DNA of 64,000 nucleotides from Flagellimonas meishanensis (GTDB taxonomy: Bacteria; Bacteroidota; Bacteroidia; Flavobacteriales; Flavobacteriaceae), in the NCBI RefSeq assembly GCF_019880545.1, contig NZ_JAINVW010000001.1:496001-560000 (forward strand). The letters run 5' to 3'. The position numbers were made by a program, and so were the translations under genes. Numbering within the stretch: the first letter of the stretch is position 1; the number at the start of each line of letters is the position of its first letter. Of the stretch, positions 37,240-58,306 are shown piece after piece. Below the pieces are notes generated by a model, which was not told the DNA's origin, did no database searches, and was given only the letters and a program-made list of their open reading frames with translations.

Positions 37240-40200
37240 TCATTTGCTTATTTCAGGTGCAATGGTAAATGAATAACTATACCTCCCAGGCTTAATGGTA
37301 TATTCATCATGTACCATTCTACCCCAGGAGGTGTCGCCCCCTACGCCCATTTGCAGTAAATCGATGTTCCATTGTACAGTTTCACCTATTCTGATATCCG
37401 CTCCGTGCTTTTTGGTCACAGGCACCAATCCAGAGGCCGAGGCTGCTCCATCTTTTTCCGAATTGAAGTCCAGTTCTGTCAGAGCAAAAGGCCATACACT
37501 TGAATTCAAAAGGATATCTCCAACAACTTTTATCGATAAATCTGATGAAGTAACTTCCATCCAACGCACATCGGTTTTGTTTCCTGTTTCCTGGGGCCGG
37601 GAATACCGATGGAACTGATCTTCCACTTTTCCAGAATAAAGTCCCGTCTTTACCCCTGTTTTTCTATCCCAATAACTTTCATCAGGTCCATTTCCATACC
37701 AAGAAACCTTATCGAACTTTTTTGGAAGGGTAAGGTACATGCCCAATCGCGGAATGTTTGGTAAATCTTTTTGGTTGGGTGCAAAGCTGTAATCGAGTTT
37801 TAGGCTTCCATTTGACCTAAAAGTATAACCGATGTTGACCTTGGCTTCATCATTTGGAAGTGCGTACCCAACTTTGAACACTACACTACCATCTTTTGTC
37901 GTGGTTGGAGGTTCAATAAGTTTTGCTTTGTAGTTATAGGTCGCATCTTGCCAGATTTTCGCCCATTTCGGCATCCCGTTCCCTAGGTCGTTATCCGTGG
38001 GCGGACGCCAAAAGTTTGGTTGTATCGGTTGGTGGGTTATTTCGATATCATGATAAAGCCAGGAAACCAATTCTCCTGATTTTGCATCAATCTTTAGATT
38101 GACCTTATCATTTTTAAGCTCGAAAGTGTTTTCAACAGTAATTATTTGCAATGGATTGCTTTCAGATGCATTCTCGACAGGGAAGTCTCCTTTTTGAAGC
38201 ACAAATTGATCCCATGCAATTTCATGTCCCGCGGGAATCAGGGACGAATCTTCTTTTTGAATCAAGCCCACCTCAAGAATATATTCTTTTTCAGGTATGA
38301 AGGTGGTTGGAATTCCCGCTATGCGAATATTTCTTGATTGCAGTGGTTTTACCTCTACTTCAACATCATTTATTTCTTGCTCCTGAATACCATCCACCAA
38401 AATTCGAACCCTCATCTCCTTATCTGAAAAATCCGCAAAGAAATTCTTGTTATCCACCTGAACAACACCATTGCCCAAATAGCTAAAATGTACAGGTTCA
38501 TACACCTTTTTAACTTCTGAAAGATGCGGATGCGGATTGCGATAGGGGTCAACCAACCCGTTGTTCAAGAAATTGCCGTCGGTTGGCAAATCGGCATGGT
38601 AATCATGGCCGTAGGCCAAATAGGGTTTCCCGTTTTCGTCCTTGTATTCCAAACTTTGGTCCACCCAATCCCAAATAAATCCGCCTTGAAGGTTGGGGTA
38701 CTTTTCAATGATATCCCAATAATCCTGCAAATTTCCAACGGAATTGCCCATCGCATGGGCATACTCTATCATTATTGAAGGTTTATCAGAATCGGATTCA
38801 CCATGTGCAATCAAATATTCAGGTTTGGGGTACATGGGGCAGTACAGATCCGTATAATCTTCCTTGCCCGCAGGTTCGTATTGCACAATGCGGTTATCAT
38901 CCTGTTCTTCGAGCCATTTATATGTCGTTCTAAAAATTTCTCCTTCGCCTGCCTCATTTCCCAAAGACCAGGAATAAATGCTGGGGTGGTTTCTATCTCG
39001 ATAATACATCCGTTGGGTACGCATCATATGCGCAGGAAGCCAGCTCATCTCATTTCCAATCTGCGTTTTTTCGTCTATCGCCAACGGATGACTTTCAATA
39101 TTGGCCTCATCAACAACATAAAGTCCATATTTGTCACATAAATCCAGCCAATAAGGGTCGTTTGGATAATGTGAACTTCGAACCGCATTGATATTGTTCT
39201 GCTTCATCAACTGAATATCCTTTTCAATGGATGCCTTGGAAACGACATGGCCGGTAAAGGGGTCCGTTTCGTGGCGGTCCACTCCCCTAATGTAAATGGG
39301 CTTGCCGTTGATCAATACCTGAGCATCTTTAATTTCGACCCTTTTAAACCCAATATGACTTTTTACATGGATGTTGTTTTCTAGATTGCTCGCATCCTCA
39401 AGTGAAATTTGGAGCTGATAAAGGTTTGGAATCTCAGCAGACCATTGCCTAACACTATTGATCAGATGTTCAAACACCACTTCTTTGATGCTGTCGGCTG
39501 GAATTTCAGCTTCTAAAGTTTGCTTATGGATGGATTCCGACCCATCAAAAAGCTCCAAAACAATGTTTCGGGATACATTTTCTTTAGATTGATTGGCTAT
39601 TTTGACAGTTCCTTTAAAAATGCCATCAACATAGTCATCATCCAAATTGGTATAGGCATGATAGTCTGAAACAAAAACCTTGGGCTGGGCATACAAATAC
39701 ACATCGCGTTCAATTCCGCTCATGCGCAACATATCCTGACTCTCCAAATAGCTCGCATCGCTCCATCGGAACATTTGCAAAGCAATAAGGTTCTTTCCTG
39801 GATTCAAATACTCCGAAATATTGAATTCAGCTGGTGTTTTGCTTCCTTGGGAATATCCAACATACCTTCCATTTACATAAACATACATGGCGGATTTTGC
39901 TCCTGCAAAATGAAGGATGACATCCTCCTTTAAAAATTCTTCGGACAACTCGATTACTTTCCGATAAGTCCCGACTGGGTTATAATCTTCGGGAGCGTTG
40001 GGCCATTTAGTGTCAAACGGATACCGCTCATCCAAATAAATGGGGTGGTCATAACCTTCCACTTCCCAATTCGCAGGAACGGGTATGGTATCCCAATCAC
40101 TATCATCAAAAGCCACATTTTGAAAAGTTGTGGGTCGTTGTTTTGGGTCTTTAACAAAGTAAAACTTCCAGTCGCCATTCAAGCTCATGTAACGTTTTGA

Positions 40201-40380
40201 ATCTTCCATATCCTCCTTTTCAAAAGATTCCAGACCAAAAAAACTAGCTCGGGGCGGCAGCTTGTTCTCTTCAAAAATTTCGTGATTATAATGGTAGGTC
40301 TGTTCCGCTACTTCGGTCAGATATTCTTTTTTACAGCTTAGTGCCAAGCACAGCAAAAAACTTAAAAAAATATATCGCAT
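37240..40380 (-). CDS. Glycoside hydrolase family 2 beta-galactosidase-like lipoprotein
   Basis: The enzyme hydrolyses terminal beta-linked sugars (galactose likely, other hexosides possible). I chose the ATG at 40380 since it gives a lipobox ([16 protein letters not shown], Cys16) and 1046 residues. GH2 features run in order: a sugar-binding domain ([28 protein letters not shown]), an immunoglobulin-like region, and the TIM barrel with [16 protein letters not shown]. The acid/base is Glu476 in SLGNEAGEG and the nucleophile Glu539 in [12 protein letters not shown] LacZ-like small-chain domain follows. It is the last of three tightly packed genes, 10 bases after the fusion gene. Outer or periplasmic membrane anchoring is expected. 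Confidence 0.93.
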
Positions 40381-57900: not shown

Positions 57901-58306
57901 GGAGCAATCGTTACATTTAAAATCCAACACCTTTGCTTCGGCCTATGTTGAAAATTTGGGGAACGGCAAGTTCAAAATGCATTCCTTACCAAACGAAGCC
58001 CAGCTTTCTTCGGTCAATGCGATTCAAATAGATGATTTTGATGGTGATGGCCTTATGGATATTCTAGTTGCTGGAAATCTGTATCAGTCGGAGGTTGAAA
58101 CGCCTCGAAACGATGCAGGCATAGGACTATTAATGAAAGGTTTGGGCAATTCTGATTTTGAAGCACTCAGATATGCTCAAAGTGGTGTTTTTTTGGAAGG
58201 TGATGTTAAACAAATGCGCGTTATCCGATTGGGTGCTGAGGGTTCGAAAAAAGGAATATTGGTTGCCAGGAACAAGGGTGCCTTAAAGCTTATAGCGCCA
58301 GATTAA
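54983..58306 (+). CDS. FG-GAP/VCBS and ASPIC-UnbV repeat lipoprotein (CRTAC1-like)
   Basis: The 1107-residue lipoprotein (Cys26 in LIGLVSC) has about fourteen calcium-binding repeats of the form D-x-(D/N)-x-D-G-x-x-D. Examples are GDIDNDGLPDIYF near 76-88, DLNQDGWPDIYVGND, DFDQDGDLDLFVG and DFDGDGLMDILVAG. An ASPIC/UnbV module at about 510-600 carries YPTRGYQSAVEPLVHFGL and IAWPDGKMQV. This is a propeller-type binding protein with no recognised catalytic site. It lies 3 bases after GH31, so it belongs to the SusCD operon. I infer a surface scaffold or glycan-binding role. It is large for such a locus. Confidence 0.88.
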   Translation: MKKIRSIKPLSCHTAIVLVLIGLVSCNNSIERPKIGAPYLFSEVPSTETRIHFINEIPENSAMNSMVYEYFYNGGGVAIGDIDNDGLPDIYFTANLKGSSLYRNLGNLKFEDITTEAGVGSTFGWTTGVTMADINADGWLDIYVCKSGKGKAANRKNLLYINNQNGAFSEKASEYGLDFSGYSTQASFFDYDKDGDLDMFLLNHNVDPVNTNNPEVFKNDKNELVGDCLFRNDNGKFTNVSNEAGIIQNTLGFGLGISIGDLNQDGWPDIYVGNDYIEQDYLYYNNGDGTFSEQLKSKIGHTSNFSMGTDIADFNNDGFLDIISLDMVAEDNYGIKTGMSGMNPKAFNHAVDNGFHYQYMFNALQLNNGNGHFSEVGQMANISNTDWSWAPLFADFDNDGLKDLFVTNGLKRDFRNNDFKKYKLKRLQEAQDNGEKMSKVIEELVKKTPQRKIENYFFKNNGNLTYTKTSAAWGLKSPTFSNGAAYGDLDNDGDLDLVINNINEKASILRNDSHLNFIQFQLKGNDENPFGIGTKISIETEKGNQHIENYPTRGYQSAVEPLVHFGLSDAERIKKATIAWPDGKMQVLTDIPSNQRLTIDYRDAVVQSKQKAKASPIFTEITQKVGLEHRHQENPHNDFELESLLPHKMSEFGPALAVADINGDGLEDFFVGGAKGFSASLYVQNSVGNFSASNHGTWLQDKDFEDVGAIFFDADNDGDQDLYVVSGGNEQQAGHPYYQDRLYINNQGKFRREPQRLPKILLSGSCAKPFDFDQDGDLDLFVGTRQQPQKYPYSETSLLLENVNGVFRDVTNDKAPDLAKAGMVTDAIWSDFNQDGQTDLIVVGEWTKINFLKNKSGTLELDNSILPNTEGWWNTIAETDFDQDGDMDYVVGNLGLNYKYKASEEAPFEVYSTDFDDNGTNDIVLGYYNQGNLFPLRGRECSSQQMPFIKEKFPTYHSFGSANLTQVYGKEKLEQSLHLKSNTFASAYVENLGNGKFKMHSLPNEAQLSSVNAIQIDDFDGDGLMDILVAGNLYQSEVETPRNDAGIGLLMKGLGNSDFEALRYAQSGVFLEGDVKQMRVIRLGAEGSKKGILVARNKGALKLIAPD

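Follow-up and report, generated by a model that had tools for sequence, protein, structure and literature searches.

The stretch analysed here is a 64,000-nucleotide piece of the Flagellimonas meishanensis genome (contig NZ_JAINVW010000001.1, positions 496,001 to 560,000; hereafter the window). Positions 37240-58306 carry a locus that is most probably (we put the probability at about 0.86) a utilization system for glycosylated hydroxylysine derived from collagen or from a collagen-like protein. Its core is formed by a GH63-like gene, a GH2 gene and, between them, a gene for a kinase-M23-lyase fusion. Glucosylgalactosyl-hydroxylysine had been proposed as the substrate in an earlier note on this DNA, and the proposal gains independent support from the gene neighbourhoods of relatives: genes for L-piperidine-6-carboxylate dehydrogenase, the 2-oxoadipate dioxygenase family, hydroxyproline-type enzymes, galactokinase and Xaa-Pro-peptidase-like proteins all suggest that this glycoside is what the locus consumes.

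We infer the following route. Glycopeptides bearing Glc-alpha-1,2-Gal-beta-O-hydroxylysine (Glc-Gal-Hyl) would bind SusD, perhaps also the FG-GAP lipoprotein, and enter via SusC; the imported substrate is, in our reading, a glycopeptide and not a polysaccharide. The lipoprotein of family GH63 would take off the glucose and that of family GH2 the galactose. Free 5-hydroxylysine would then reach the cytosol, where the APH domain of the fusion would phosphorylate it to phosphohydroxylysine, and the phospho-lyase domain, as its family and the neighbour genes suggest, would eliminate phosphate and ammonia to give 2-aminoadipate semialdehyde/piperideine-6-carboxylate. An L-piperidine-6-carboxylate dehydrogenase encoded elsewhere in the genome could oxidise piperideine-6-carboxylate to 2-aminoadipate; in some relatives, enzymes of the 2-oxoadipate dioxygenase/decarboxylase family and D-2-hydroxyglutarate-dehydrogenase-like enzymes may carry the breakdown through to 2-oxoglutarate. 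Upon substrate binding, the sigma/FecR/SusC set would activate expression of the genes.

The locus and its core enzymes

The locus consists of two divergent units, with 313 bases (45442-45754) between the ends of the open reading frames (ORFs). The minus-strand unit reads GH63-like gene, fusion, GH2, with intergenic gaps of 2 and 10 bases: the likely fusion start is the ATG at 43423, 2 nt past the GH63 stop, and the likely GH2 start is the ATG at 40380, 10 nt past the fusion stop. The plus-strand unit reads sigma, FecR, SusC, SusD, GH31, FG-GAP/UnbV. The features are:

37240-40380, minus strand: GH2 LacZ-type beta-galactosidase, predicted lipoprotein (NF052611, 1007.5 bits versus a cut-off of 999; five GH2/LacZ Pfam domains above cut-off; lipobox by eye)
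40391-43423, minus strand: fusion of APH-type kinase, M23 and class III pyridoxal phosphate (PLP) phospho-lyase (Pfam APH, Peptidase_M23, Aminotran_3)
43426-45441, minus strand: GH63-like (YgjK/MGH1-like) exo-alpha-glucosidase, predicted lipoprotein (Pfam PF22422, 232.9 bits; PF03200; YgjK_N; lipobox by eye)
45755-46315, plus strand: extracytoplasmic function (ECF) sigma-70 factor (TIGR02985, 136.7 bits versus a cut-off of 126.4)
46432-47556, plus strand: FecR-type anti-sigma regulator (FecR and FecR_C)
47651-51022, plus strand: SusC/RagA TonB-dependent outer-membrane transporter (TIGR04056, 887.6 bits)
51033-52577, plus strand: SusD/RagB surface lipoprotein (PF07980, PF14322)
52628-54979, plus strand: GH31 exo-alpha-glycosidase, optional accessory (PF01055, PF21365)
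54983-58306, plus strand: FG-GAP/UnbV-ASPIC protein, lipoprotein by eye (PF13517, 9 stretches; PF07593)

The three genes of the left operon (by Pfam and NCBIfam) and the six of the right arm all lie where the earlier note had placed them. What it called a kinase-lyase fusion does contain both domains, and it had missed the third, middle M23 domain; of its SusC with STN, the SusC part stands, and STN went unreported by Pfam at E<=0.001, though residues ~49-120 resemble it by eye. Adjoining susC and susD homologues, with GH63, GH2, GH31 and sigma/FecR genes alongside, make this a SusCD-type locus.

The fusion scores 1121 bits with NF004799/PRK06148, slightly under the cut-off of 1128, and the NCBIfam name of that model is only 'hypothetical protein'. 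For the lyase domain, the best PDB relative both by sequence and by fold is human phosphoethanolamine phospho-lyase 6tor (441 bits; 50% identity in the fold match); the second is a bacterial phospho-lyase (303 bits) and the next family reaches 166 bits. These matches place the domain in the phospho-lyase branch of the class III PLP enzymes. Across 20 aligned fusions, kinase residues H203, D205, N210 and D227, which we take to be the APH-type catalytic residues, are invariant, as are H441, D445, H495, H531 and H533 of the M23 domain, presumably its zinc ligands. This domain, of a zinc peptidase family, occupies residues ~430-540, mid-chain in an apparently cytosolic kinase-lyase. The AlphaFold model of the fusion has a mean pLDDT of 83 and a pTM of 0.60. 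A signal peptide was absent by eye at the fusion start, and for this reason the protein is probably cytosolic. We propose that it is a hydroxylysine kinase/5-phosphohydroxylysine phospho-lyase. A bolder and rather doubtful extension would make it a one-chain processor, in which the M23 site cleaves a bond such as hydroxylysine-glycine in imported collagen di- or tripeptides, and the hydroxylysine so released is phosphorylated by the kinase and deaminated by the lyase; if that were true, the fusion family would be a marker by which collagen feeding could be recognised throughout Bacteroidota, whether or not the genes for sugar removal accompany it.

The closest PDB relative of the GH63 protein is E. 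coli YgjK (3d3i), and the alignment retains the acid/base motifs WESG..D and EN-Y-PLTG. By eye, the N-termini of the GH63 and GH2 proteins are lipoprotein-like signal peptides. In an excerpt of PMC7263609, Asp501 is the general acid of YgjK. The GH63 enzyme is proposed to remove the alpha-1,2-glucose from Glc-Gal-Hyl, and the GH2 enzyme to free galactose from the remaining Gal-Hyl. A glucosylglycerate reading was rejected, the glucosylglycerate hydrolase model scoring 77 bits versus a cut-off of 550.

Conservation of the gene set

Conservation was followed in 60 genomes of the same genus, including the genome under study, with ~35 kb fetched per genome for the neighbourhoods. The full fusion was found in 12 of them and a two-domain relative in five more. 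GH63 adjoins the fusion in 10 of the 11 other genomes with a full fusion, and GH2 does too in nine of these 10; G041 has GH63 and fusion without GH2. A divergent sigma-FecR-SusC-SusD arm is present in all 10, FG-GAP was seen in five and GH31 in two. The two-domain kinase-lyases (G009, G023, G036, G043 and G046) lie away from glycosidases and show 44-49% identity in the lyase part; they were rejected as support for hydroxylysine, given their other surroundings, and probably act on another substrate. Loci L048 (11021-14249) to L051 have neighbours of the same or similar sizes (in L048 a PALP enzyme and a universal stress protein), and those of L052 are different.

When the genome collection was scanned with the GH63 alignment, 363 relatives were obtained, and the loci studied are the best 80 of these; they include some genomes of the genus sample, and the two counts overlap. 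The kinase domain is present in 65 of the 80 loci and the complete kinase-M23-lyase in 61, the other four ending at contig ends; GH2 is present in 63, the GH63-fusion-GH2 trio in 57, SusC in 46, SusD in 46, FG-GAP in 19 and GH31 in three. The regulator differs between loci (sigma/FecR, a TPR protein or GntR) and the trio is constant; the GH63-kinase linkage spans over 20 genus names, among which regulators, transporters and beta-galactosidase families vary. Names among the 80 loci are animal-related (spongiicola, spongicola, ichthyoenteri, holothuriorum) and also algicola and ulvicola and, since both kinds occur, they decide nothing.

These counts bear on GH31, which the earlier note had counted, together with the GH63-like enzyme, as alpha-acting: with three loci in 80 it was rejected as a core member, and the alpha-glucosidase of the conserved core, as far as gene families tell, is GH63, GH31 being a rare accessory. 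Two of the three GH31-bearing loci (L148, L151) are the G056 and G021 genomes again and, within the stretches fetched from the 12 same-genus genomes with a full fusion, GH31 was seen in the window, G056 and G021 only. Its nearest PDB entries by sequence are alpha-xylosidases (best 150 bits). The G021 version of the locus (L035, 9355-11043) has an M14 carboxypeptidase-like gene between SusD and GH31.

Among 395 sampled Bacteroidota genomes, a near full-length fusion was found in 38, and 12 more match the fusion model via the lyase part. GH63 at at least 55% identity occurs in six of the 395, all within these 50; five further, more distant GH63 matches (35-51%) come from genomes with no fusion-model match. 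In a tree of the lyase domain (arbitrarily rooted, the L121 type left out) the GH63-linked fusions cluster together, with G054, L100 and L102 nested inside; L098 and L099, which have a PF07063 homologue in their fetched 20 kb, stand next to this group.

Outside the conserved block, the window holds an HGSNAT-like gene adjoining a sodium:solute symporter gene (31392-34299) and, at its end (62499-63965), a second SusD-like gene; a SusC plug domain lies just beyond (G000:C1:562753), so that another SusCD locus is nearby.

Genes for amino acid breakdown in the neighbourhoods

In four genomes from another genus of the same family, this GH63 clade (~55% identity) is accompanied by a GH42 beta-galactosidase and by a two-domain kinase-lyase devoid of M23. 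The gene order in L121 is PF07063 (2-oxoadipate dioxygenase/decarboxylase family), L-piperidine-6-carboxylate dehydrogenase, GH63, GH42, kinase-lyase, FAD oxidase. The dehydrogenase scores 826 bits versus an NCBIfam cut-off of 730, and the best match of the FAD oxidase is D-2-hydroxyglutarate dehydrogenase (582, under the cut-off of 1350). L166 and L200 have homologues of the PF07063 gene and of the dehydrogenase beside the SusCD arm, the L166 dehydrogenase scoring 805 versus 730; both members tested (L121, L166) are thus over cut-off. Aminoadipate semialdehyde is the product of the mammalian hydroxylysine route. The L121 neighbours represent the steps expected after this compound and do not fit an ethanolamine substrate. 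The genome under study has an L-piperidine-6-carboxylate dehydrogenase as well (841 versus 730). Over the 60 same-genus genomes, PF07063 is found in 10, the fusion in 12 and both in seven (hypergeometric P 1.9e-4, shared ancestry ignored).

Genes of the hydroxyproline type occur in 26 of the 80 GH63 loci, 16 of which also have the kinase. One member of each neighbour cluster was annotated: a proline-racemase-family protein is present in 24 loci, Delta1-pyrroline-2-carboxylate reductase in 22 (NF004793 over cut-off, one member), a D-amino-acid-dehydrogenase-like oxidase in 10, Xaa-Pro-aminopeptidase-like M24 proteins in 10 and five, an S37 peptidase in 14, galactokinase in 14, a mutarotase-like protein in 18 and a sodium symporter in 17. 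Of 27 racemase-family ORFs, 20 have the motif EGYSTMCGHA, six the Cys/Cys pair of epimerases, and one is a fragment. The L180 member, of the EGYSTMCGHA type, has Thr at the second catalytic position, as do some trans-3-hydroxyproline dehydratases; its best NCBIfam model is trans-3-hydroxyproline dehydratase (364 versus a cut-off of 540).

A second set, of 43 kinase-lyase loci taken from other genomes and selected without regard to GH63, was meant as a negative control. Eight of the 43 hold 4-hydroxyproline-epimerase and D-amino-acid-dehydrogenase homologues, which in seven cases stand next to the fusion and share its strand (L102 has them on the other strand), and the fusion itself is therefore tied to hydroxyproline; these hydroxyproline gene counts stand without a clean random-region background rate. 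The L108 epimerase scores 592 bits versus 376, and the locus also carries a DapA-like gene, a GntR regulator and a sodium symporter; L089 carries a DapA-like gene and an alpha-ketoglutaric-semialdehyde-dehydrogenase-like gene (under cut-off). A galactokinase homologue lies near the fusion in six of the 43, all of one genus; that of L086, the one member checked, passes the TIGR00131 cut-off and has DHDPS-family and Xaa-Pro-dipeptidase-like genes close by. A second proline-racemase-family copy was found in six of the 60 same-genus genomes, all six with the fusion (P 1.8e-5, shared ancestry ignored). In the genome under study, a 4-hydroxyproline epimerase (569 versus 376) is encoded on another contig with an aldehyde dehydrogenase and a DapA-like gene; this cluster (L252 4051-14988, G000:C3) adjoins a SusC and SusD-like pair and is perhaps a second collagen-peptide uptake locus.

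One oddity among the neighbours is the 1,088-residue protein encoded after the fusion in L196 (15032-18295), which has a TolB-like propeller part and an amidohydrolase/Xaa-Pro-dipeptidase-like part (under cut-offs); L214 and L219 have genes of similar length.

Competing readings and known systems

Several observations weigh against a hydroxylysine-glycoside locus. The nearest solved phospho-lyase works on phosphoethanolamine, and sequence alone cannot separate a hydroxylysine enzyme from such a lyase. Piperideine-6-carboxylate dehydrogenase serves ordinary lysine breakdown too. E. coli and a further control genome have PF07063 matches too, no NCBIfam model recognised the L121 member, and its role is therefore assigned at family level; the D-2-hydroxyglutarate dehydrogenase, hydroxyproline dehydratase, D-amino-acid dehydrogenase and Xaa-Pro peptidase calls are under NCBIfam cut-offs. 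Inside the flanks examined, 54 of the 80 GH63 loci have no hydroxyproline gene clusters. The kinase is not adjacent in 15 of the 80: 13 of these genomes hold a homologue elsewhere, five with M23 (61-70% identity, one of them truncated) and eight of the more distant two-domain kind (44-49%), and the two remaining, both named Kordia, have none at the cut-off used. Conversely, G054 and L102 carry the fusion with no glycosidases nearby. The genome under study has no PF07063 gene, its single proline-racemase-family gene lies outside the locus on another contig, and no hydroxyproline gene stands beside the window's own locus; an M9 collagenase, the one collagenase family searched, was unmatched there and in the control.

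The likeness to phosphoethanolamine phospho-lyase brings in another reading, in which the fusion is a kinase/phospho-lyase for ethanolamine or another amino-alcohol and the locus consumes an ethanolamine-linked glycoside or glycolipid head group. Its lyase domain is half identical to the human enzyme and, in an excerpt of PMC8154272, a paper on phosphonate degradation, no phosphate-releasing lyases of the class III subgroup are documented other than phosphoethanolamine phospho-lyase and one close relative. We nevertheless hold this very unlikely, as the relatives' neighbour genes handle aminoadipate semialdehyde, 2-oxoadipate and hydroxyproline, not acetaldehyde. 4-Hydroxyproline is found in plant and algal wall proteins as well, and some of the strains bear alga-derived names (algicola, ulvicola); the target might then be a hydroxyproline-rich plant or algal glycoprotein, not collagen, with the kinase-lyase handling another residue. 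That is more improbable still: the semialdehyde and 2-oxoadipate genes indicate a six-carbon amino acid, the proline-racemase-family genes beside pyrroline-2-carboxylate reductase fit trans-3-hydroxyproline, a collagen residue (under the dehydratase cut-off), and arabinan or extensin enzymes were unseen among the conserved neighbour clusters identified, part of which were annotated. LacZ-type GH2, GH31 and GH63 are common in polysaccharide utilization loci (PULs), and the locus could be an ordinary alpha/beta-glycoside PUL with the aminotransferase-like fusion as a chance neighbour; against a linkage to the kinase kept under so many genus names, whatever the regulator, transporter or beta-galactosidase family, this is the least probable of all.

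The hydroxylysine-glycoside reading proposes a function for a fusion family so far named only hypothetical protein, and a physiological substrate for one clade of the YgjK-type GH63 enzymes. Next to the known hydroxyproline pathways, it would place a route by which bacteria use both the collagen glycan and the hydroxylysine that carries it. If it is true, many marine flavobacteria are specifically equipped to feed on animal connective tissue; genomes could be screened for collagen use by means of the gene set, which could also supply enzymes with which to map collagen glycosylation. A literature search over titles and abstract openings, with most subscription journals outside its reach, showed among the papers listed no bacterial locus for glucosylgalactosyl-hydroxylysine or hydroxylysine utilization, which is not proof that none is described.

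Veiga-da-Cunha and colleagues reportedly described, in 2012, the mammalian hydroxylysine kinase and 5-phosphohydroxylysine phospho-lyase. The two proposed reaction types are the same here and the lyase is of the same family as its close PDB relative, but the present protein is bacterial, joins both activities to M23 in one chain and is encoded in an operon with glycosidases. The vertebrate alpha-glucosidase of Glc-Gal-Hyl, PGGHG, is a GH65 enzyme according to excerpts of PMC8626586 and PMC8537180, whereas that of the locus is GH63. The closest solved relative of the latter, YgjK, shares its catalytic motifs; a figure legend in PMC7263609 shows YgjK with glucose and a galactose at subsite +1, and in an excerpt of PMC9061262 its natural substrate is assumed to be an alpha-glucoside other than nigerose. 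With the SusCD loci of Bacteroidota the locus shares the SusC/SusD pair, sigma/FecR control and lipoprotein exo-glycosidases, and it differs from them in having no polymer endo-enzyme and an amino-acid kinase/lyase in its core. Finally, its relatives resemble the bacterial L-hydroxyproline degradation clusters, as presented in the accessible part of PMC5144071, in their proline-racemase-family and related genes; those clusters are described for hydroxyproline, whereas here such genes are joined to genes proposed to act on hydroxylysine glycosides.

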